This document shows, piece by piece, positions 34,334 through 55,163 of a stretch of 64,000 nt of DNA. Made by a program: the position numbers and the translations under genes. The stretch spans positions 54,643 through 118,642 of IMG/VR virus record IMGVR_UViG_3300023172_000011. One strand, written 5' to 3'. Positions within the stretch are counted from its first letter, which is position 1. Each line of letters starts with the position of its first letter. The notes beneath the pieces are model-generated. The model had not been told where the DNA came from, did not search any database, and saw nothing but the letters and a program-made list of their open reading frames with translations. This DNA is from a virus.

Positions 34334-34588
34334 TCATCTAATAATTATAAAATCTTCGGATATAGATTGTTGAATATCCAGATTAAATACATCCTGTTGC
34401 TGAACATCAATGGAGAAACTTTCATCTTGTTGAATGTCTATGGAAAAACTCTCATCTTCCTGAATTTCAATGGAAAAGCTCTCATCTTCCTGAATGTCGA
34501 TATTAAAGTAAAATATTTCCCCGTTTGACACAACATATGTGTCGATATCAGAAAAAGTGCTGCCACAAATAGGACTATCGCAAAACAT
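34334..34588 (-). CDS. 10-residue repeat protein
   Basis: An 84-residue protein made largely of tandem decapeptides of the form F-[SN]-[IL]-[DE]-[IV]-Q-x-x-[DES]-x (FSIEIQEDES, FSIDIQQDES, FSIDVQQQDV). Alternating hydrophobic and acidic residues predict one beta strand per repeat, as in a small beta-solenoid. The N-terminus has two Cys (MFCDSPICG). A late-type promoter motif lies just upstream. Function unknown; perhaps a virion surface protein. Confidence 0.6.
   Translation of the reverse strand: MFCDSPICGSTFSDIDTYVVSNGEIFYFNIDIQEDESFSIEIQEDESFSIDIQQDESFSIDVQQQDVFNLDIQQSISEDFIIIR
34392..34505 (-). repeat. Tandem 30-bp repeats
   Basis: About four 30-bp units, each with a core close to TCATCTTCCTGAATTTCAAT on the plus strand, code the decapeptide repeats of the overlapping gene. 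Units differ by a few bases, so copy number may vary between relatives by slippage. Confidence 0.8.
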
Positions 34589-34637: not shown

Positions 34638-35057
34638 TCAAATTATAGATATTCTTGCCTTTAAACTTGAAGTTGAGATATCTCTGGTATACGGAATATA
34701 AATTAATAGTATATTATTAATGTCCAACCACTCTTGAGTAAACTGCATTTGCTCGTAATAGTCTTTCTTGCACCAGTCATCGCCAATTGCTATAATGTCT
34801 GGCTGAACTGTTAATATTGCTGGTTTGCTATCGTGACCACCAATATTTTCAACAACTTTTATATTTGAGTCAAAACACTCAATACTTTGTTTTCTTTCAT
34901 GATAAGATAAAATTGGGGCTTGATTTTTATAAGAAAATACGAACTCGTCAGTATTTAGAGAAACAAAAACTTGACTGGAAATCTTTTGACAGGCTCTTAA
35001 AAATTTCATATGCCCGTAATGGAAAAGATCAAATGTTCCTCCAGTGTATAGCTTCAT
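34638..35057 (-). CDS. Cytidylyltransferase-like protein (TagD/GCT family)
   Basis: A 139-residue nucleotidyltransferase. The N-terminus MKLYTGGTFDLFHYGHMKFL contains the HxGH CTP-binding signature of glycerol-3-phosphate cytidylyltransferase and related enzymes, and the C-terminal ISTSSLKARI is the second family signature. Length equals that of TagD. It would activate a polyol phosphate or similar with CTP (CDP-glycerol type), or ADP-activate a heptose analogue. It overlaps the glycosyltransferase gene upstream by 4 bases and forms a cassette with sulfotransferase and PRTase-HAD genes. The substrate is not resolvable. Confidence 0.85.
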   Translation of the reverse strand: MKLYTGGTFDLFHYGHMKFLRACQKISSQVFVSLNTDEFVFSYKNQAPILSYHERKQSIECFDSNIKVVENIGGHDSKPAILTVQPDIIAIGDDWCKKDYYEQMQFTQEWLDINNILLIYIPYTRDISTSSLKARISII

Positions 35058-35911
35058 TTTTTAAATGCTTCCACATAAAATGGCACTAACTTGTGAGACA
35101 TTCTCCATCCCAATAAATGATGGAATATACAATCATGTAGGCATAGCTTCTGCATAGACCAAGTTATCATATCCTTAAATTCTATTTCTTGTGGATATAG
35201 CGGATCGCCTATATTATAAGTTGATGAACATATTTTGTTATTTGGATATTGACCAGCAAAATTACACGGAGGCTCTATTGTGTAGCTTTTATAATTATCA
35301 TTCTCTTGTAGAAAAAAGGATATTAAATGTTCATCATTAATTATTTGTTTTTCATCCTTAATTCGTAACTGGTTGTTAATGCTCATACAATGAAGTAACC
35401 CTATTTCTGACACAATATCTAATTCTCTACTTATTAAGTAATCAACTAAATTTTGACAAAACTCTCTTGTGTATATTGCAAAGCCAGTATCAGTATTAAG
35501 CACTTTATTATAATTATCGGAAAAAAATAATCTTGTGATATCTGTTTTTGTTTTCAACCACGGCCTGTCGGGATTATCGCCAAAATCTACAAATCTCCAG
35601 TGCATAAAATTTTTGTCTTGCGGTATTAATCCGTTAATGTCTTCTTCTAGTTTTAGTACTACAGTGTCTAAATCAATAAAAATACCAATATCAGCCTGAG
35701 ATTCTAAAAAACTATAAATTCGCGTTAGCTTTCTAATGAACGGATGATGATCAATGTTAGTATCAAGCATCTTTCTAACAAAGTAATTATTTTTGTCAAT
35801 AACACGTAGCGTTACTCCATGTTTAGTAAAATACCTATTGAGGCTAGTAATTGAAGTTCTATGCCAATCTTTAAATTCATCATAGGTATTTAGGACATAC
35901 GCTTCTATCAT
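35054..35911 (-). CDS. Glycosyltransferase, GT-A fold
   Basis: A 285-residue glycosyltransferase. GIFIDLDTVVLKLEEDI (about residue 75) carries the DxD metal and donor site; LNTDTGFAIYTREF downstream resembles the GT8/GT34 pattern; the C-terminal HDCIFHHLLGWRMSHK supplies the late His residues. It would transfer a sugar from a nucleotide donor. Neighbours supply an activated polyol and a sulfotransferase, so virion or host surface glycans are the probable acceptors. Confidence 0.75.
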   Translation of the reverse strand: MIEAYVLNTYDEFKDWHRTSITSLNRYFTKHGVTLRVIDKNNYFVRKMLDTNIDHHPFIRKLTRIYSFLESQADIGIFIDLDTVVLKLEEDINGLIPQDKNFMHWRFVDFGDNPDRPWLKTKTDITRLFFSDNYNKVLNTDTGFAIYTREFCQNLVDYLISRELDIVSEIGLLHCMSINNQLRIKDEKQIINDEHLISFFLQENDNYKSYTIEPPCNFAGQYPNNKICSSTYNIGDPLYPQEIEFKDMITWSMQKLCLHDCIFHHLLGWRMSHKLVPFYVEAFKK

Positions 35912-35913
35912 TA

Positions 35914-36441
35914 TTAAGCCTTATTAAGATGTGGCAAACTACATTGTGGAATATCACATTTTACACAAATTTCCCACCATTGTTCGTTTAGTTTGTAGTA
36001 GTCAAATATCTCAACACCAAGATCTTCTCCATCATAACCTTTAGTAAACCAAGCTAAATCTTGTTTTCTTTGAATATCCCAATACCATTCTTTATCTTCA
36101 GATGATAATACTTTTTTCCATCCATCAGCACAAAGTGGAGACTCATGAACGCCTAAAGCAATATCTTTATCTACTAATGCTTTAATGCTATTAAGTCTTT
36201 CTTCTTCTGGTCTATAAATAGCAAACTTAAATATATCATCCCACTCTGTTATGTATTTTTTTAAAACACAGGCTCTTGTATGTCTTGCAAAATGCCACCA
36301 ATGCGGTATAGAATGTGCCCCTGTTCCTATGAAAATATCAAAATTATTTCCGGCACAAGCGGAAGCTATAGCGTTAGTTATTGAATTTCCAGCGGCTCTT
36401 GGCACATGTATAAAAACCGCCCTTCCCGGAAGGTAGATCAT
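35914..36441 (-). CDS. Sulfotransferase-like protein
   Basis: A 175-residue protein resembling the Sulfotransfer_2 family. GRAVFIHVPRAAGNSIT at the N-terminus corresponds to the PAPS 5'-phosphosulfate loop (FIHxPKxxGxS in cellular enzymes, here with Arg in place of Lys). FKFAIYRPEEERLNSI near residue 90 matches the 3'-phosphate motif (FAxxRxPxxRxxS). It would transfer sulfate from PAPS to a carbohydrate hydroxyl. It is shorter than cellular members, though both substrate motifs are present. It lies within the sugar cassette of the late operon, so glycans on virion proteins are a likely target. Confidence 0.7.
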   Translation of the reverse strand: MIYLPGRAVFIHVPRAAGNSITNAIASACAGNNFDIFIGTGAHSIPHWWHFARHTRACVLKKYITEWDDIFKFAIYRPEEERLNSIKALVDKDIALGVHESPLCADGWKKVLSSEDKEWYWDIQRKQDLAWFTKGYDGEDLGVEIFDYYKLNEQWWEICVKCDIPQCSLPHLNKA

Positions 36442-37463
36442 TAAAAGTAAACCCCATCATTTGGACAAATAACACAAGTATTTGGAAATGTTTCTTTAAT
36501 TATTTTTGCCTCTGGCATTTCACTCTCAACAAAAAATTTAGCAAACATTTTTTTGGCAATTTCTCCTTTATATTGACCAACAACAAAATGATGCCTTAAA
36601 TTACGTTCTTCTTCTCTCTCTGTTGGAAACATAATTAGCTTATTATAATTAAATCCATGTCTTTTAAGCCAAGCCTCCGTCACATCTCGATATCTTTCTA
36701 GTCTTCCAGTTACTAATGCCTTAGCTTTAAATAATTTGGGTATTCTCTCAAGATATGGCTCAACTGTTTCAAGCCATGCAATATGCTTTTCTTCATCGTT
36801 TAATATTTCAATTGGAACGTTCTTGCAAAATATACCGTCGATATCAAATAATGCGTGTTGGACATGCAGGCTGTTAAAAAAGTTCCATTCTAATATATGT
36901 GGATTCTCTAATATTTCCCCGTAATGATCTACATGATTAGTGCCAACAGATGTTGAGTAAGTAACGGCAAATATTGATTCCGGAAATAACTCCTTTATAT
37001 TTTTAGCGGCAAAACCAGAACTACTTGTATCGTCAATAAATATCAGGCAATCCCCAGATTGATTGAAATGCTCCATACGACATCCACCATATTCAGAAAA
37101 TGAAGAGAGTAAAACCAACTCTTTTCCATTAAAAGAATAAAGCGGAAGATTTAACTCAACCGCTATAATTGATGCTGTAATTAATCCTGACCTTGGCACA
37201 CCAACAATTCCGGATATATTATATTTCTTCAATTGTGGAATTAGCTTGGTTTTTGTTGTATTTATCAACGCATCAAGCGTTATTATCTTTCCAGATGGAG
37301 ATCTTTTTCTTTTTGTTTGTATTCCAAGATCAGATCTTTGTTTATATGCCTCTCTTTCTTCAGATGTAGCAGATTGACACCATTGCCAACTTGGTGGGTC
37401 TGCCGTCATTTCTTTATTGAAAAACTGGCAAAATCCGGGTCCGTCACAACAACATTCTTCCAT
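36441..37463 (-). CDS. Phosphoribosyltransferase-HAD phosphatase fusion
   Basis: A 340-residue two-domain enzyme. Residues 1-30 hold a Cys cluster (EECCCDGPGFCQFF ... WCQ). Residues about 60-205 form a type I PRTase, with GIVGVPRSGLITASIIAVEL and the PRPP loop CLIFIDDTSSSGFAAKNI. Residues about 206-340 form a HAD domain (ALFDIDGIFC, the DxDG motif; ALVTGRLERYRDVTEAWL, motif II). The pair would make and then dephosphorylate, or salvage, a nucleotide or sugar-phosphate intermediate. It lies between fibre genes and the sulfotransferase. The exact substrates are unknown. Confidence 0.75.
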   Translation of the reverse strand: MEECCCDGPGFCQFFNKEMTADPPSWQWCQSATSEEREAYKQRSDLGIQTKRKRSPSGKIITLDALINTTKTKLIPQLKKYNISGIVGVPRSGLITASIIAVELNLPLYSFNGKELVLLSSFSEYGGCRMEHFNQSGDCLIFIDDTSSSGFAAKNIKELFPESIFAVTYSTSVGTNHVDHYGEILENPHILEWNFFNSLHVQHALFDIDGIFCKNVPIEILNDEEKHIAWLETVEPYLERIPKLFKAKALVTGRLERYRDVTEAWLKRHGFNYNKLIMFPTEREEERNLRHHFVVGQYKGEIAKKMFAKFFVESEMPEAKIIKETFPNTCVICPNDGVYF

Positions 37464-37466
37464 ATA

Positions 37467-37958
37467 TTATCCTAGCATAAATTGTGAATTTAATTCCCTT
37501 GCAATAATATTTACATCTACTGAGGCACCATAAGCGTCATACTCATAATGGAGTGTATCTGGATCAACGTCGCCGCCAGATGCCGTATCAATGATATATT
37601 TTACCGTTACGGTGGCAGAACTTGCAGAAGATGAAGATATTGCTGTAATATCATATCTATACCATTGCTTAGCACCTCCAGTAGAGTTGTCAATATCATC
37701 ACCAATAATTAATTTATCGCCAATTTGAATTTTTGTAAGACCATCGGATGTGGCATTATCATAGACTAAAGTAACTGTATAAGTTGGACCAAATCCAGTA
37801 GAACTGCTAATATCCAAATTATATTCCGGCATAGCATCTGGATCGCCACTACCTCGCAATACATCAAATATTTGATAGTTATGAAAACCTAATGCTCTTA
37901 CTTCAGCATCCGTCATATACGACAATGGAGGTCTATGTGTATATGTTTGTTCCGGCAT
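37467..37958 (-). CDS. Small virion protein next to fibre genes
   Basis: A 163-residue polar beta-rich protein (TGFGPTYTVTLVYDNATSDG; SSSSASSATVTVKYIIDTAS). It lacks enzyme motifs and lies between the repeat fibre and the sugar cassette. A structural role is inferred from composition and position. Confidence 0.5.
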   Translation of the reverse strand: MPEQTYTHRPPLSYMTDAEVRALGFHNYQIFDVLRGSGDPDAMPEYNLDISSSTGFGPTYTVTLVYDNATSDGLTKIQIGDKLIIGDDIDNSTGGAKQWYRYDITAISSSSASSATVTVKYIIDTASGGDVDPDTLHYEYDAYGASVDVNIIARELNSQFMLG

Positions 37959-38284: not shown

Positions 38285-41200
38285 TTATAGATTGTATCCT
38301 ATTACAAAACCGTCATAATTTCCGGCTGAAGTACAAATAAATCCAAATACATCTGTTTTACCGCCAGTTGTAGTTAATGTTGGTACTAAGCCTCCCGGCC
38401 ACTTAATCGTACTGAACCAAGTTACTGTACGAGTGCCAGTCCCATCTTGAACTAACCTAATTACAAATCTTTGACCAACATCAGCATTAGATAGTGCTAA
38501 AGTCCTATTACCTCCAAGTGTAACTGTATGAGTATCAGCTTCATCAAGATCAAATGTAACTGTTGCTCCATCTGATTCGGTATTTAAAGCACCTTTAGCC
38601 GCCTTATTAAAATGCCAAGTTCTATCAGTTGTTACATCCGTTCCATTATCCGGGGCATAAAGAACATGATTGCCAGCCGCATAATCGTAAATAGCAAATC
38701 TTGACTGGTTCGCTTGAAGCCCAACCCTCCATTTTGTCACACTTGCTGTTCTTAAAGCTAAATCCGCCCAATCGGTTGTTCCGCCGCGATCAAGTTCCAC
38801 ATAGGCTTGACCATCACTATCAATTTCTACGCCAGCCCAGCCGTTTGTACCGGGAGTGACTGTTTTAGCTGTTATTTTTACGTTATCGCCAGCACCCTTT
38901 TGTAGTAGAAAATTACTCGTATCTGTAGTTGGATAGACTTTAGCTACAACCGTATCAGAACTATCAGTAGCTTCAAAAAAGCTCGCAGATTGTGAAGCTG
39001 CACCTTTAGCGGTTAAAGCTACATTTGTAGATAGACTTGCTTCACATTGAGCGTCTAAAATCTGATTTCCATTTAGATCTAAGTCACCTCCAAGCTGAGG
39101 GGTTGTGTCTTCAACTATATTAGAAAGATACCCAGCGGTAGAATGATCGCCCCATCCATAAGCAGTGTTCCAGTTTGTAGAATTGTCAGTAAGAATGCTA
39201 TATGTTCCAGCACTAGCACCTCTTAACATAATACCCTGAGAGCCAAAGTCTCCATCTACAACAACGTCAGCATGGGATGTCTCCGAAGTTAAGTATCCAG
39301 CACTAGCATGATCGCCCCAGCCATAAGCAGTATCCCACTGACCAACCTTTGCATCGGTTATGGTATAGGTTCCCATATCAATAATATTGCCATTTGCATC
39401 AAGTGTTCCACCAAGCTGCGGAGTTGTATCTTCCACAACATTAGAAATGCCGCCCCCTCCAGCACCGCTTTCCCACGGAACATTAACTACCAATTGATCA
39501 CTAGCATTTCTTTGTATGGAATAGGTTCTATTTGCTGTAGTCGTAACACTTTCTGCCGCAGTTGTTTGAGTTGTGCCATCTACAAGATTAATATCAAAAG
39601 TTGTGCCATTTAAAGTTATGCCGGTTCCAGCGGTATAGGTAGTATCAGTTACAGTCTCTGTCGCTGTCGCAATTCCAGTAACGTGACCATTACTATCAAG
39701 CAAAATGTCTTGAATATAGGTTCTACCACTATTGTCTGAAGAAGAGGCGGCAGAAATGGTTGGGTGTGCTGTAAGGTATCCAGCGTCGTTAACTGCCTTT
39801 GGCGTTAAGGCTTTATCTTGATCACTATTAATTGTATTAGTGAGAATTGTGATTCCACTGCCAGATGTAGTGGCGGTTAAAGCCTCAAAAACTGTACCAT
39901 TTAACTGTAAACCACTACCGGCAGTATAGGTAGTATCAGTATCTGTTACAGTTTCCGTCGCTGTTGCAATTCCAGTAACGTGACCATTACTATCAAGCAA
40001 GATATCTTGAATATAGGTTCTTCCAGAATTATCGCTACTGCTTGCAGCAGAGATAGATGGATGTGCAATTAAATATCCAGCATCATTATTCAATAAAGAG
40101 ACATTATCGCCAGATTGTATTACCGTATTGTCAATATTGAATTCTGTACCAACAAGAGTTAATCCCGTACCAGCGGTGTAGGTAGTATCTGTATCAACGA
40201 CAGTTTCTGTCGCGGTTGCGATTCCTGTTACGTGACCATTAGAATCTAAAAGAATATCCTGAATATAAGTTCTTCCAGAGTTGTCGCTGCTTGAAGCTGC
40301 GGAAATGCTTGGATGTGCTGTAAGATATCCAGCATCATTAACTGCTTTAGGCGTTAGAGCTTTATCTTCATCACCATTTATAGTATTAGTTAATGTAGTT
40401 ATACCAGAACTGGAAGTAGTTGCCGTTAAAGCATTAAGTGTGACATCTCCAGTAGTTCCACCACCAGATAAACCACTTCCAGCATATACAGCAGTAATAT
40501 CTCCACCACCACCACCACCACCACCACCTCCAGTACCACTTTCCCAAGGAACATTGACAACTAGGTTATCACTACCATCTACTTGAATAGCATAAGTTCT
40601 ATTGGCAGTAGATGTAACACTTTCAGCAGCAGTTGTTTGCACTGTTGCATTAACGTTGGCGTCAAATGTTGTACCATTTAATGTCAAGCCAGTTCCAGCC
40701 GTATATGTGGTATCAGTATCTGTTACAGTTTCTGTAGCCGTTGTTATTCCAGTAACGTGACCATTACTGTCAAGCAAGATGTCTTGGATGTAAGTACGTC
40801 CAGAATTATCGCTACTGCTTGCGGCAGAGATAGATGGATGTGCTGTTAAATAGCTTTGCAAGTCTACAATCTGTGATTCAGTAATTCTTATTGCACCAGA
40901 ATGTTGAACAACTGATGATTCAGTAATGTTAGCGTCTGGTACATCTGCCCATGTTACATTTGCCGTTAAATCGTTAAGCTCTGTATTAATATATCCAGAA
41001 TCATTAACTAATAAACTAATATTATCGCCTGATTGCACCACAGTATCGTCAATGTTAAATTCTGTACCAACAAGAGTTAGTCCAGTTCCTGCGGTATATG
41101 TTGTATCTGTATCAACAACTGTTTCTGTAGCAGTAGAAATGCCGGTAATATGACCATTGCTGTCAAGTAAAATGTCTTGGATATAGGTTCTACCACTATT

Positions 41201-43165
41201 GTCTGAAGAAGAAGCGGCAGAAATGGCTGGGTGTGCTGTAAGGTATCCAGCGTCGTTAACTGCCTTTGGTGTTAGTGCTTTAGTTTCTGTAGAATCAATA
41301 GTATTAGTTAGTGTTGTTATGCCGGAACTCGAAGTAGTTGCTGTCAGGGCGTTGAAAGTCCTGTTAGAAGAAATATCTCCACCGCCAGATAATCCAGAGC
41401 CAGCAGTAAATGTAACAGATGTATGATCAATATGTTCGTTTGCCACAAAATTGTTCAAAGAATCATGATCTACGGCACCATAATCAACATCTATACTAAC
41501 ACTGCCGCCAAGAGTAACACTTCCACCATTTGACAATCCTGTGCCAGCAGTTATTGTTACTGACGAGTTTGCCAGTTGGTCATTGGCAACAGTACCTTGT
41601 AACAAACTTGTATCTACACCGCTAATATTAAACTCAGTACCAGATAGTAGTAATCCAGTTCCAGCCGAATATGTTGTATCTGTTACTGTTTCTGCGGCTG
41701 TCGCAATTCCAGTAACATGTCCATTACTATCCAACAAAATATCTTGGATATAAGTACGTCCAGAATTATCAGAAGAACTTGCTGCGGAAATACTTGGATG
41801 TGCAATTAGATATCCAGCGTCGTTAGTAAACATACTAACATTATCGCCAGATGTAGCTACTTGCTTGTTATCTACATATAGAATAGAATTACCGCTATCA
41901 TATACAAAATCTGAAACAGTTGTTACACCACCAGCATTAGTATCTGCGATATATGTAACAAAAGGGACGCCGCTTTGATTTAATGCTGTAACAGATTTTA
42001 AGTCGCCGCCAGATAATTTTCTTTTACCAATATTGACAAAAATACTGCCATTGCTTTCATGCGATACAACAACTCGTCCTAATGAAACACTATAGTAAGG
42101 AATGCCGGGATCAGCATTTACATATTCACCAGATGTAACCGATAAGAATAATTCATCACCGTCATTCATTCCGCCATTAGTATCAACGCCTCTCACCAAA
42201 CCAAAAGTAGAAATATATCCAAAAGAATTTGACTCAATTGTATGGGTTGCAAAACCGGCGACCTGTGAATTTTCTTCAGAATCTGCTGAAGCTAAGACAA
42301 TTGTTGGAGCGGCATTGCCATGTGATCCGTCAAGTCTAACTACAGAACCATTTGGTATATCATCTGGCGTTTCGTTTCTAACTCTTATGTATAATTCTTG
42401 CCCAATCTGCAAAGATACATCCGGCTCATCATTAAACATTGTGATAGTGTGGTTTTCACTATCGTAAAATAGTCTACCTTCTAAATGTGGAGGTTGTGAC
42501 CCATCTCCTAATAATGTCATGTCAAAAGTGTCAAAATAACCACTTGTAGCTGTTACATTTCCGCTGGTAAAAATAGAGTTAGTTGTATTTGACCCGCGAT
42601 CTGTTACTGTTTGTAAAGTATCACTTTCTGCCGTTAAATATCCAGCGTCATTATTCAATAAGCTAATATTATCTCCAGACTGTAATACAGTATTATCAAT
42701 ATTGAATTCTGTTCCAGATAATTCTAAGCCTGTGCCAGCAGTATATGTGCCTCCTCCTCCCCCTCCTCCAACTCCTGAGCCATTAAAGTATAAAGCTCCA
42801 CCTACATTATATAACCTATTTGTTGTAGATGATGGAGCACCCTGTGTTAAAGTTAGACCTCTATCAGAGTAGATTGTAACGCCACTGCCATACTTATTTA
42901 TTGAGATAAATCCACTAGCGTCGGCATCTATTAGTGGTAGTCCACTAATGTTAGAAACACTAAATATAGTGCCACTAGAGAGATTATCCGTAATTGAAAG
43001 TAATCTTCCTTGCGTGCCATCAAAAACTAAAGCAGTGCCAGAACCTGTTGCACTTTCATAGGAACTCAAAACATTCAATTCAATTGGCGTGTCGTCTGTT
43101 CCGCTGCCACGAAATAGTATTTGTGGCTCTCCACTGCCCGGAGTTATTCTAATGTCTTGGGTCAT
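38285..43165 (-). CDS. Long repeat-containing tail fibre
   Basis: A 1626-residue fibre. Near the N-terminus is the short motif LYNVGGALYFNGSG, also present in the fibre gene upstream. Residues about 450-1170 hold six copies of a 40-residue unit (ISAASSSDNSGRTYIQDILL ...) separated by variable linkers of the type TYTAGTGL. A polyglycine run sits near residue 883. The C-terminus is a compact beta domain (HTVTLGGNRTLALSNADVGQ) like those that trimerise phage fibres. No chaperone peptidase is visible. It would form the host-recognition fibre, probably a beta-helical trimer. Confidence 0.8.
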   Translation of the reverse strand: MTQDIRITPGSGEPQILFRGSGTDDTPIELNVLSSYESATGSGTALVFDGTQGRLLSITDNLSSGTIFSVSNISGLPLIDADASGFISINKYGSGVTIYSDRGLTLTQGAPSSTTNRLYNVGGALYFNGSGVGGGGGGGTYTAGTGLELSGTEFNIDNTVLQSGDNISLLNNDAGYLTAESDTLQTVTDRGSNTTNSIFTSGNVTATSGYFDTFDMTLLGDGSQPPHLEGRLFYDSENHTITMFNDEPDVSLQIGQELYIRVRNETPDDIPNGSVVRLDGSHGNAAPTIVLASADSEENSQVAGFATHTIESNSFGYISTFGLVRGVDTNGGMNDGDELFLSVTSGEYVNADPGIPYYSVSLGRVVVSHESNGSIFVNIGKRKLSGGDLKSVTALNQSGVPFVTYIADTNAGGVTTVSDFVYDSGNSILYVDNKQVATSGDNVSMFTNDAGYLIAHPSISAASSSDNSGRTYIQDILLDSNGHVTGIATAAETVTDTTYSAGTGLLLSGTEFNISGVDTSLLQGTVANDQLANSSVTITAGTGLSNGGSVTLGGSVSIDVDYGAVDHDSLNNFVANEHIDHTSVTFTAGSGLSGGGDISSNRTFNALTATTSSSGITTLTNTIDSTETKALTPKAVNDAGYLTAHPAISAASSSDNSGRTYIQDILLDSNGHITGISTATETVVDTDTTYTAGTGLTLVGTEFNIDDTVVQSGDNISLLVNDSGYINTELNDLTANVTWADVPDANITESSVVQHSGAIRITESQIVDLQSYLTAHPSISAASSSDNSGRTYIQDILLDSNGHVTGITTATETVTDTDTTYTAGTGLTLNGTTFDANVNATVQTTAAESVTSTANRTYAIQVDGSDNLVVNVPWESGTGGGGGGGGGGDITAVYAGSGLSGGGTTGDVTLNALTATTSSSGITTLTNTINGDEDKALTPKAVNDAGYLTAHPSISAASSSDNSGRTYIQDILLDSNGHVTGIATATETVVDTDTTYTAGTGLTLVGTEFNIDNTVIQSGDNVSLLNNDAGYLIAHPSISAASSSDNSGRTYIQDILLDSNGHVTGIATATETVTDTDTTYTAGSGLQLNGTVFEALTATTSGSGITILTNTINSDQDKALTPKAVNDAGYLTAHPTISAASSSDNSGRTYIQDILLDSNGHVTGIATATETVTDTTYTAGTGITLNGTTFDINLVDGTTQTTAAESVTTTANRTYSIQRNASDQLVVNVPWESGAGGGGISNVVEDTTPQLGGTLDANGNIIDMGTYTITDAKVGQWDTAYGWGDHASAGYLTSETSHADVVVDGDFGSQGIMLRGASAGTYSILTDNSTNWNTAYGWGDHSTAGYLSNIVEDTTPQLGGDLDLNGNQILDAQCEASLSTNVALTAKGAASQSASFFEATDSSDTVVAKVYPTTDTSNFLLQKGAGDNVKITAKTVTPGTNGWAGVEIDSDGQAYVELDRGGTTDWADLALRTASVTKWRVGLQANQSRFAIYDYAAGNHVLYAPDNGTDVTTDRTWHFNKAAKGALNTESDGATVTFDLDEADTHTVTLGGNRTLALSNADVGQRFVIRLVQDGTGTRTVTWFSTIKWPGGLVPTLTTTGGKTDVFGFICTSAGNYDGFVIGYNL
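39648..41805 (-). repeat. Six dispersed fibre repeats
   Basis: Six copies of a near-identical 120-bp unit inside the fibre gene, at about 39648, 39946, 40198, 40723, 41117 and 41683 on the plus strand. Each codes the same 40-residue segment ending in SNGHVTGI plus an ETV linker. The units are nearly the same at the protein level but differ at many third positions, which indicates old duplication under protein-level constraint. Confidence 0.8.
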
Positions 43166-43920: not shown

Positions 43921-44202
43921 TTAAGCTCCAAACATGTCCCGCGTCCATTCTGGTGTAGCCAGAATAGCATGAATTTCAGATAAAATAAGTAAGCCAGTAT
44001 GGCTTGGACAGTCTGTAATACAATTCGGGCAGCATTCACAATCTGCCGGATCATGATCACAAGTACAATCATACTTGACAAACGTTTTTGTTCCATCTAC
44101 ACTGTATCGTAATGTGTCGATAGATGTTTCACGCACTTTGCTAAAGTCTATCAAACTGGCATCATCGGATGATATAATTGAGAATCTTCTTTTTTCAAAC
44201 AT
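43921..44202 (-). CDS. Small Cys-rich protein
   Basis: A 93-residue protein with eight Cys in a 30-residue stretch (YDCTCDHDPADCECCPNC ... DCP), suggesting metal binding, flanked by short helices. It is coupled by overlap to the gene upstream and abuts the LamG gene. The Cys pattern resembles the CxC design in the giant Cys-rich tail protein of the same phage. Confidence 0.6.
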   Translation of the reverse strand: MFEKRRFSIISSDDASLIDFSKVRETSIDTLRYSVDGTKTFVKYDCTCDHDPADCECCPNCITDCPSHTGLLILSEIHAILATPEWTRDMFGA

Positions 44203-45065
44203 TAATACTCAACCTCCAATTTTGGTACATCTTTTCTTTCAGCATAAACAATGTAAGAGCCGCAAAACTTCTTACTAAGCTCGACATACTTATTATTAGC
44301 TTTAATAACATATGGCTGTATAAAGTAAAATTTACTAGGGGTTAAGTGAACAGTAATACTATCTTCATTTACAAGATTGCACCAATATTCCGGAAGATCT
44401 ATTCTATTACAGTCTAACTTACCTCTGTAGTAAACTCCATTCTCTGGACCTTCAAGACAGGCGTATTGAAGTTTGCTACCTTCTTTTAATGGATGGTTAA
44501 TAAGAAAAGATTTTGTTGTGGCTGCAATATGACCACCAACGGTTAATGTGGTAGATCCACTATTCCAAGTAAATCCAGAATCAGAAGCTGGCTTATTATC
44601 TGATCCATAATATAAAATTTGATTGCTAGGACCAGATAAGGCAATTGGTGTTCCGTCAAAGTACAGTCCACCATTTAAATTATATAAAGCATTGGCTGTG
44701 GTTGGAGGTGTGCCAGATTCAATAATTATACCAGATGAGCCAACAATCACTTGATCATTAGCGTCTTGATAAACACTTCTTTCTGCCGGATATACTATAA
44801 AAACAAAACTCTGTCCGCTAAGATTTAGTTTAGCATTAGAGTTTGAGCTAGATAAAATTGTATCTCTAGTTAAGGTATCAGAAGAGTACGTTCCAATACC
44901 AACTTCCCATGCATCTTGATTGACAATGGTATAATATGTAGTATCACTATTAGATAGTGCTGAACTAAAAGATTGATAACCAGCTATAGCACCACGTAGC
45001 GTTATTGTACCAGTGCCAGTTGTCAATGACGATTCTTTGACACGATTGGCAAGTGTTAATGGCAT
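44202..45065 (-). CDS. Fibre protein with C-terminal EGPENGVYYRG domain
   Basis: A 287-residue fibre-like protein. The N-terminal half is beta-rich. The middle has LYNLNGGLYFDGTPIAL, shared with the long fibre. The C-terminal 100 residues begin KSFLINHPLKEGSKLQYACL, then EGPENGVYYRGKLDCNRIDL, a domain I recognise from phage fibre ends. It may act in trimerisation or receptor contact. It follows the capsid terminator, so it is probably transcribed at a lower level or from read-through. Confidence 0.6.
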   Translation of the reverse strand: MPLTLANRVKESSLTTGTGTITLRGAIAGYQSFSSALSNSDTTYYTIVNQDAWEVGIGTYSSDTLTRDTILSSSNSNAKLNLSGQSFVFIVYPAERSVYQDANDQVIVGSSGIIIESGTPPTTANALYNLNGGLYFDGTPIALSGPSNQILYYGSDNKPASDSGFTWNSGSTTLTVGGHIAATTKSFLINHPLKEGSKLQYACLEGPENGVYYRGKLDCNRIDLPEYWCNLVNEDSITVHLTPSKFYFIQPYVIKANNKYVELSKKFCGSYIVYAERKDVPKLEVEY

Positions 45066-53756: not shown

Positions 53757-53994
53757 GTAATTTACTAACCTTAAAGTCGTATTTTAAATCTTTTAGTAAT
53801 AACTTAGTTTCAGTAGAATCATCTTGTTCTAGAATAATATCACAAAACGCCTTAAAAACAGAATAACAAGCATCGTCTGGATCGCTTGCGTCGATTTCTA
53901 TCTTTGAAGTTTGTCTACCAAAGTTTACTAATCGAAACCTCACGAGTCTTTTTAGTAATAAAGTCATATCTACAGTAACAATATAATTTATCAT
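53740..53994 (-). CDS. Small protein before the HNH gene
   Basis: An 84-residue protein starting MINYIVTVDMTLLLKRLVRF with one Cys pair (CYSVFKAFC). The ATG overlaps the dehydratase stop and the gene overlaps the HNH start by 17 bases, so it is translated in the same run. No family recognised. Confidence 0.5.
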   Translation of the reverse strand: MINYIVTVDMTLLLKRLVRFRLVNFGRQTSKIEIDASDPDDACYSVFKAFCDIILEQDDSTETKLLLKDLKYDFKVSKLHVKKL

Positions 53995-55163
53995 TTAGTA
54001 TCTACATACATTTGTACCTCAGAAGGAAAATATGAAACATCATGTGATATCATAATATTAACTAATCCCTCGAAGGAAGTTTTAGGCGTCCATCCTAATT
54101 GCGTTCTAGCCTTACTAGAATCACCTCTTAGGTAATCAACTTCTGCCGGTCGATAAAATGCTGGGTCTTGAACTACAAAATGTTCCCAATTGTTAATACC
54201 AACCAGTTTAAATGCTACGTCTAAGAACTCGCGAATAGTATGAGTCTCGCCGGTGCAAATGACATAATCATCAGCAGCTTCCTGCTGAAGCATCATCCAC
54301 ATGGCTTCCACATAATCTCCTGCATACCCCCAATCTCTCGATGCTTCTAAGTTGCCTAGACGTAGCTTTGGAAATTTATATCCATTTATAATGATATTGT
54401 CATTATCATAACTAGCTTTACTTTGAGGCGATATTGGACTTACAGCCCTATTAGACCATCTAAGAAATTCACCAATCCATTTTGTAATTTTTCTAGTGAC
54501 GAATGTCTCTCCTCGTCGCTCTCCTTCATGATTAAATAAGATACCGGCACTGGCATGTAATCCACATGCTTCACGATATAACCTGACTGCTTCATGAGCT
54601 GCACACTTAGCAATAGCGTATGGACTTTGTGGTAGGAATTTTGTGTCTTCGTTTTGACATTTTAAATGTGTCAATACAGTATTTCCATTTTCATTTTCGT
54701 AACTATAATCTATATAGTCATAATTCTTGCCAAACATTTCACTAGAACTTGCCTGATAAAATTTAACCTTATACTTATCAAGATTTAAATCTATGATAGC
54801 CTGTAAAAGATTAAGGCATCCCTTGCCTGTTATATCCCAAGTTAATCCGGGCTGCTTGAATGATACGGCAACGTGTGATTGTGCGGCGAGATTATATATT
54901 TCAGTGCCATACGTAGCATTTTTAGCAAGAACACTAATGACGCTAGAATAGTCTGTAATATCGCCATCGACTATCTTAAAATTTGGATTATTAATATGAG
55001 AGATTCTCTGAGTGTTGTCAGTAGAAGATCTACGGCTAACACCAACTACTTTGTAGTTCTTTTCAAGTAAAAGATCAGCTAGATGTGATCCATCCTGACC
55101 AGTTACCCCAAAGATAATTGCAGTTTTTTCCTTCTTACAAACACAGTTTCCTTTACAAGTCAT
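53991..55163 (-). CDS. gmd: GDP-mannose 4,6-dehydratase
   Basis: A 390-residue short-chain dehydrogenase that converts GDP-mannose to GDP-4-keto-6-deoxymannose, the entry to fucose, rhamnose, perosamine and similar sugars. The NAD(P) loop is GVTGQDGSHLADLLLEK (about residues 19-35), the Thr/Ser-Glu site SSSEMFG, and YAIAKCAAHEAVRLYREACG holds the catalytic Tyr-x3-Lys. The residues ILFNHEGERRGETFVTRKIT are typical of GMD. A short Cys-containing lead (KGNCVCKKEK) precedes the enzyme. It is coded in the late operon just before the nuclease genes, and connects the glycosyltransferase sets on both strands. Confidence 0.9.
   Translation of the reverse strand: MTCKGNCVCKKEKTAIIFGVTGQDGSHLADLLLEKNYKVVGVSRRSSTDNTQRISHINNPNFKIVDGDITDYSSVISVLAKNATYGTEIYNLAAQSHVAVSFKQPGLTWDITGKGCLNLLQAIIDLNLDKYKVKFYQASSSEMFGKNYDYIDYSYENENGNTVLTHLKCQNEDTKFLPQSPYAIAKCAAHEAVRLYREACGLHASAGILFNHEGERRGETFVTRKITKWIGEFLRWSNRAVSPISPQSKASYDNDNIIINGYKFPKLRLGNLEASRDWGYAGDYVEAMWMMLQQEAADDYVICTGETHTIREFLDVAFKLVGINNWEHFVVQDPAFYRPAEVDYLRGDSSKARTQLGWTPKTSFEGLVNIMISHDVSYFPSEVQMYVDTK

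Follow-up and report, generated by a model that had tools for sequence, protein, structure and literature searches.

To our knowledge, PRPP has only recently been recognized as a direct sugar donor for glycans, and the few enzymes that use it in this way are of one kind. Kelly et al. (2022) reportedly defined the dual-domain gPRT plus PRP arrangement in Klebsiella (O4 ORF5 and O7 ORF7), whose gPRT is said to diverge from other phosphoribosyltransferases (PRTs). In Cj1432 of Campylobacter jejuni, according to the accessible portion of the report, a PRT and a HAD phosphatase act in turn, so that ribose-5-phosphate is moved from PRPP to a sugar hydroxyl and is then dephosphorylated (PMC12096443). 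Transfer of ribose-5-phosphate from PRPP followed by dephosphorylation is likewise described in the available sections on Bcs3 CrpP-CriT of Haemophilus influenzae type b (PMC10299916), and those on the Klebsiella O4 and O7 ribofuranosyltransferases give the same transfer-then-dephosphorylate logic (PMC11231755; overview in PMC11127046).

A protein that pairs a PRT with a HAD phosphatase is encoded in the window, by which we mean the whole 64,000-nucleotide stretch analysed (it runs from base 54643 to base 118642 of a virus record of 118,642 bases, possibly an incomplete one, that carries terminase and head-type genes). The gene (36441..37463, minus strand) is an intact ORF of 340 aa in the ORF listing of the window, with 19 stops on the plus strand over the same bases. 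A type-I PRT domain occupies residues ~57-198 (36870..37295, minus strand) and is followed by the HAD phosphatase domain at residues 199-338 (36450..36869, minus strand); we refer to this protein and its relatives as PRT-HAD. An earlier note had read the protein as a PRPP-loop PRT joined to a DxDG HAD phosphatase, and the ORF, the profile matches and the AlphaFold2 folds uphold that reading.

A Pfam scan of the window protein gave no PRT match. The PRT half was matched by the NCBIfam xanthine PRT model PRK09177.1 (residues 59-182, E 5.9e-12, 45.4 bits, which is below the cut-off of 138), by phrog_8995, 'phosphoribosyl transferase' (E 1.2e-7), and by XGPRT in a PDB sequence search (9e-6). When the whole protein was modelled with AlphaFold2 using 49 relatives (pLDDT 90.2), the nearest fold of the PRT, which is compact at ~145 residues, was E. 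coli XGPRT (4jls_D, Z 13.3, rmsd 3.0, 127 residues aligned, 24% identity). For the HAD half, Pfam returned only a sub-threshold LNS2 match, and phrog_415, a polynucleotide kinase family, matched residues 250-281 (E 1.8e-5). Residues 199-337 of the whole-protein model matched the T4 Pnkp phosphatase 5uj0_A (Z 11.8), and the HAD domain modelled alone with AlphaFold2 (pLDDT 95.9) matched both Pnkp1 and T4 Pnkp phosphatase at Z 12.2 (T4 Pnkp: rmsd 3.0, 124 residues aligned). The AlphaFold check proposed in the earlier note for both domains thus returned an XGPRT-like PRT and a Pnkp-like HAD. The 3'-phosphatase domains of T4 Pnkp and Pnkp1 share the HAD fold and motifs with the window protein, which differs in having no kinase domain, another partner and another context.

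Conservation was assessed in 49 aligned sequences, 19 from phages and 30 from bacteria or archaea. Residues R91, S92, G93, D145, G150, D179, W193, D207, D209, G210, R254, T262, W265, L276, R287, K299, E313 and S314 were invariant in all 49, a set that, on our assignment, covers both the pyrophosphate and the PRPP loops of a type-I PRT as well as HAD motifs I to IV. Because identity to the window protein is 42-46% among the phage relatives and 24-32% among the bacterial ones, conservation of these motifs exceeds chance. The PRPP loop (residues 144-152, DDTSSSGFA; 37008..37034, minus strand) holds the invariant D145 and G150, and position 144 is Asp or Glu in 49 of 49. HAD motif I (DxDG, residues 207-210, DIDG; 36834..36845, minus strand) holds three more of the invariant residues, and position 252 is Thr in 46 sequences and Ser in 3; we presume that the DxDG, T252, K299 and E313 represent motifs I, II, III and IV, respectively. 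Loss of catalytic residues was looked for, as the earlier note had advised, and the motif residues of both domains were kept in the 49 sequences.

The positions that would mark a purine enzyme behaved differently. We take the general base of XGPRT to be Asp92 and its purine-O6 lysine to be Lys115, which a phmmer alignment to PDB XGPRT places at window positions 148 and 171. No Asp was found at position 148 in any of the 49 sequences; the phage proteins have Tyr (15), Phe (3) or Ser (1), and in the 30 bacterial and archaeal rows Ala (18) and Ser (5) make up most of the letters. At position 171 the phage proteins have His (11), Arg (5), Lys (2) or Thr (1), and the bacterial rows have mostly Ile, Ala or Leu, with Lys outside the seven commonest letters. 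Handling of the PRPP donor thus appears to have been kept and purine recognition lost. The window PRT therefore shares its fold and its PRPP and pyrophosphate motifs with XGPRT, but differs from it in the purine base and O6 positions, in falling below the NCBIfam cut-off, in its fused HAD and in its polysaccharide context. We rejected purine salvage by the phage as the main reading given the lost purine positions and the glycan context seen in both phages and bacteria.

A related explanation is that the PRT couples PRPP to a nucleobase or a similar molecule, after which the HAD removes the 5'-phosphate to leave a nucleoside-like signal or precursor. The resemblance of the PRT to XGPRT, OPRT and APRT fits this idea, and the jumbo-phage Ter-type PRT was among the fold matches, at rank 15. 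The accessible text on Ter systems describes a PRT working with a HAD phosphoesterase, as in the window protein, and proposes that the pair makes nucleoside derivatives, also in a jumbo phage (PMC7824862). However, we set aside a Ter pathway because no TerD-family protein was found in the 118,642 bases of the possibly incomplete record, where the context is one of glycan genes instead. Nor was any Ter family among the 25 families listed in either of the two bacterial neighbour tallies given below. Together with the loss of purine recognition, the consistent polysaccharide context and the glycosyltransferase fusions, these results make nucleoside synthesis quite unlikely.

The comparison with the known PRPP-dependent glycan enzymes is closer in logic than in form. 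In the parts of the Klebsiella reports at hand, the gPRT-PRP enzymes resemble PRT-HAD in being soluble, in combining a PRT with a HAD phosphatase on a single chain and in belonging to polysaccharide loci, just as the family of the window protein is found in glycan-assembly loci (PMC11231755, PMC11127046). As described in the text available for Bcs3 and Cj1432, both use PRPP as donor and have PRT and HAD fused to glycan-making domains, as do three PRT-HAD relatives (L045, L104 and L020), but their domain order is GT/CroT, HAD, PRT, the opposite of the order in the window protein; CriT of Bcs3, moreover, spans residues 592-1036 with three helical bundles (PMC10299916), compared with the much shorter window PRT. 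Among the matches listed in our PDB sequence and fold searches there was no solved gPRT or PRP structure. Bcs3, Cj1432 and the Thermobacillus composti enzyme were also absent from the matches listed, which leaves room for distant kinship. The Klebsiella gPRT is reported to diverge from other PRTs, whereas the window PRT is compact and XGPRT-like and its HAD is nearest Pnkp. Given the reversed order and the compact, different PRT, PRT-HAD would work like the gPRT-PRP enzymes, and we do not class it as a member of that group.

Ahead of the PRT lies an N-terminal module (residues 1-45; 37329..37463, minus strand) with Cys at positions 4, 6, 12 and 29. The earlier note had pointed to a Cys cluster here, and its spacing, CxC-x5-C-x16-C, was found in 22 of 22 proteins, namely the 19 phage PRT-HADs and three proteins from other viral contigs (L026, L028 and L029) that carry the module without PRT-HAD and have GT1- or GT2-type glycosyltransferase domains instead. 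In the 30 bacterial and archaeal rows the Cys columns are gaps, or other letters in one or two rows. Because it heads both phage PRT-HADs and glycosyltransferases and is missing from nearly all the aligned bacterial members, the module appears to be a detachable head shared by glycan enzymes of phages. It probably binds zinc; such a small metal-binding head would probably serve to bring these enzymes to a partner or acceptor that they have in common. The module heads proteins with two glycosyltransferases at L026:8001-9980, L028:8001-9899 and L029:589-2886, and these viral contigs also carry two DUF1501 proteins (L026) and pieces of DNA polymerase III alpha.

No INPHARED record matched the window protein at E 1e-5, and at E up to 10 the 50,697 records gave partial matches only, none covering 80% of the protein. 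A first scan of IMG/VR gave 3 loci and an alignment-based scan gave 31: 24 with a match along almost the entire protein, 4 with a match to residues 1-94 only and 3 that are incomplete. The suggestion that such a fusion is unusual in phages thus holds for cultured phages. L001 and L002 encode proteins with 100% identity to that of the window, and several other proteins are near-copies of one another. A further copy, on L039 (VFHP01000007.1), a contig filed under a SAR202 MAG, accompanies a phage tail block and is identical to the L014 protein over the tree columns; in all probability this contig is phage DNA, and as a clue to the host it would be weak at best.

We compared 26 PRT-HAD loci, comprising the window, the 24 IMG/VR loci and L039. 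In 23 of the 26, PRT-HAD stands between tail-fibre-type genes upstream and a cassette of varying content downstream, beyond which the structural genes c4 and c3 resume. The small protein c2 (37467..37958, minus strand, in the window) lies within two genes upstream of PRT-HAD, also in 23 of 26 loci; in the three exceptions the contig begins too close by (L013, L024) or a further gene lies between (L020). The genes after PRT-HAD vary and resemble sulfo-, methyl-, pyruvyl-, glycosyl- or cytidylyltransferases: sulfotransferase-like c5 occurs in 17 loci, methyltransferase c6 in 13, radical-SAM c9 and unknown c8 in 9 each, pyruvyltransferase c13 in 7, cytidylyltransferase c15 in 5 and sulfotransferase c23 in 4. 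Pfam matches of cassette representatives were Methyltransf_24 (4.6e-11), Radical_SAM (2.4e-10), PS_pyruv_trans (1e-8) and Sulfotransfer_2 (2.2e-4), with no match for the c5 representative; the cassette of L017 has an epimerase match (7.6e-59). The radical-SAM protein at L013:2237-3262, of cluster c9, has a weak SPASM match and recurs behind the tail fibre in its nine cassettes.

In the window, PRT-HAD and the next three minus-strand genes are tightly packed, the successive junctions being a 1-base overlap, a 2-base gap and a 4-base overlap. The first, a sulfotransferase-like protein of 175 aa (35914..36441, minus strand; phrog_3347, E 1.3e-4; cluster c5), had no Pfam match and nothing convincing in PDB. 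It is followed by a 285-aa protein (35054..35911, minus strand) weakly assigned as glycosyltransferase-like from a DxD-like motif read by eye only; it had no Pfam or PHROG match and no convincing PDB match, and a search for homology to the GT8-like protein of L007 found none. Among the phage loci compared, no others than the window and its two copies have it. The third is a cytidylyltransferase-like protein of 139 aa (34638..35057, minus strand) of the glycerol-3-P / ethanolamine-P type (Pfam CTP_transf_like, 3.3e-15; PDB glycerol-3-phosphate cytidylyltransferase, 1.3e-13). At the cassette end, an 84-aa protein of ESFSIDIQ-like repeats (34334-34588, minus strand) is again confined to the window and its two copies. 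Upstream of PRT-HAD lie proteins of 163 and 99 aa and a tail-fibre-type protein of 1626 aa (38285..43165, minus strand; phrog_9017 tail fiber, 3.7e-10). A 287-aa protein (44202-45065, minus strand) adjoins the tail-fibre genes and shares its C-terminal ~120 residues with phrog_17490 and phrog_28536, both of unknown function. A second block on the plus strand holds a 546-aa glycosyltransferase (265-1905; phrog_2170, 8e-28), and the part of the record outside the window holds a GT2 (G000:C1:22848-23228). A 390-aa protein (53991-55163, minus strand) matches phrog_540 strongly (5.9e-67), a family whose label, 'nucleotide-sugar epimerase', fits poorly with its category, DNA/RNA metabolism.

Glycan-modifying genes are linked to virion genes at this locus, and the conserved position and neighbours support the putative virion-glycan cassette put forward in the earlier note. 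The sections available on mycobacteriophage virion glycosylation loci likewise describe glycosylation of virion proteins by enzymes of the phage, but those loci use glycosyltransferases, and a PRPP-dependent PRT-HAD is not named in those sections (PMC12363180). No glycosyltransferase was common to every cassette among the 26 loci. In phage L020, PRT-HAD runs on into a GT8-like domain (616 aa in all), and in L007, L017 and L023 the next gene encodes a protein similar to that domain (the L007 copy was the one scanned with Pfam); fusion in one phage and separate neighbours in three form a Rosetta-stone link between PRT-HAD and the GT8-like protein.

With no shared glycosyltransferase, ribose might be placed directly on a virion protein, the acceptor being a Ser, Thr or Tyr of the tail fibre or of a neighbour such as the ~130-aa c2, with no glycan between. 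Tight linkage to c1 and c2 and the lack of a flippase in the record agree with this arrangement, but the bacterial relatives sit in polysaccharide loci without tail genes, and we regard it as very unlikely. The same chemistry might also serve to alter the host surface polysaccharide, for superinfection exclusion or receptor masking. That the bacterial relatives belong to surface-polysaccharide loci is consistent with such a role, and phage glycan clusters are read as diversifying the outer polysaccharide in the text available to us (PMC7824862). The phage gene, however, lies in a structural block beside tail-fibre-type genes in most loci, and no Polysacc_synt flippase family was found in the window record, which may be incomplete; a host-surface role is thus unlikely, if less so than the direct route. 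These two features, the structural block and the lack of a flippase, speak for an acceptor that belongs to the virion and is made in the cytoplasm. We infer that the product is probably on the virion and not on the host surface, and the acceptor would be a sugar chain, most likely one on the virus particle.

Outside phages, a plasmid search gave 42 records matching PRT-HAD, and relatives were found in 478 of 525 candidate stretches of genome contigs. In the annotated plasmids of Rhodobacter CZR27 and Paracoccus marcusii, the adjoining genes are labelled 'lipopolysaccharide biosynthesis protein' and glycosyltransferase. In the Rhizobium plasmids L034 and L038 a glycosyltransferase and type VI secretion VgrG lie a few genes downstream, and a caspase-family gene precedes PRT-HAD; the unannotated loci of Novosphingobium and Allorhizobium have EPS-type genes, as read by eye from their translations. 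We tallied neighbours for the best 80 of the 478 loci, omitting 7 in which no gene was called where the match lies, L039 (phage), L059 (a second copy) and contig ends, which left 66 upstream and 66 downstream proteins. Wzy_C was found in 21 of 66 and Glyco_trans_1_4 in 13 of 66 upstream, and Glycos_transf_2 in 33 of 66 downstream; these counts are not independent, since the tallied loci are mostly from Bacteroidota. The control was a set of 28 ordinary PRT genes (28 of 30 loci) from 14 of the same genomes; the 25 commonest families among their 54 neighbours included no glycosyltransferase, and we therefore rejected a neighbour artefact. Fusions were also seen: one 1841-aa protein (L045) contains GT2, Capsule_synth, GT2 and PRT-HAD, L104 is a PRT-HAD-GT2 fusion, and PRT-HAD is joined to an FkbM methyltransferase in L051 and to a methyltransferase in L062. 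The L045 protein (L045:3243-8765) is a candidate all-in-one polymerase, and three Planctomycetaceae MAG contigs (L043, L047 and L074) encode PRT-HAD-PRT-HAD in tandem in one reading frame.

In a quick, unrooted tree of 91 rows (6 of 97 were dropped by the motif trim), the 20 phage rows grouped together across a branch with SH-aLRT 100, and the rows nearest to them were from Planctomycetota, where long branches meet. The window member has the longest branch among the phage members (1.66). Its PRPP loop (SSSGF) deviates from that of its relatives, which have Tyr or Phe and then Ala/Ser/Gly-Gly, so this copy could be weaker. Both features would fit a window copy that has drifted and is non-functional or moonlighting. 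Its open frame, the presence of all invariant residues, the identical protein on two further IMG/VR contigs and the confident model argue against this possibility, which we consider highly improbable.

The pairing of PRT and HAD, the polysaccharide loci, the loss of purine recognition and the fused glycosyltransferases are best explained by the published ribose-5-phosphate transfer reaction. We think it reasonably likely, on these comparisons, that PRT-HAD is a PRPP-dependent pentosyltransferase that transfers ribose-5-phosphate to a glycan or protein hydroxyl, with dephosphorylation to follow. The N-terminal PRT would bind PRPP and move ribofuranose-5-phosphate onto a hydroxyl of a glycan or virion protein, with release of pyrophosphate, and the fused HAD phosphatase would then take off the 5-phosphate. 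Its removal would let the next cassette enzyme extend or decorate the ribose with glycosyl, methyl, sulfo, pyruvyl or cytidylyl-activated groups. The channelling of a ribose-phosphate or nucleotide intermediate envisaged in the earlier note is thus retained in its ribose-phosphate form, as transfer followed by dephosphorylation, and disfavoured in its nucleotide form, in view of the glycan context, the glycosyltransferase fusions and the lost XGPRT purine residues. Against ribosyl transfer, the PRT is of a nucleobase type (XGPRT-like) by sequence and fold, the HAD is nearest Pnkp and not any listed ribose-phosphatase, the domain order is opposite to that of Bcs3 and Cj1432, and some cassettes lack a recognizable glycosyltransferase, that of the window being a weak assignment. 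In the literature we found no PRT-HAD family member with tested activity and, in searches mostly without subscription journals, no paper on a phage PRT-HAD of this kind and no description of the bacterial family.

More tentatively, and with somewhat less than an even chance in our judgement, a nucleobase-style type-I PRT may have been recruited, separately from gPRT and CriT, as a PRPP-using O-glycosyltransferase. Together with its Pnkp-like HAD it would make up a second class of ribofuranosyltransferases, widespread in the polysaccharide loci of bacteria, and also the core of a hypervariable cassette with which a marine-type phage lineage puts ribose-based glycans on its tail fibres. The transfer-then-dephosphorylate logic is already known; a compact PRT acting as a glycosyltransferase and a ribosylating phage would be the surprise. 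If this is correct, a protein that hundreds of polysaccharide loci encode, annotated merely as 'phosphoribosyltransferase family protein', would gain a function, and PRPP-dependent glycosylation would have arisen, or been re-tooled, more than once. Phages would then ribosylate glycans, and PRT-HAD would serve as a marker for hidden virion-glycan cassettes.
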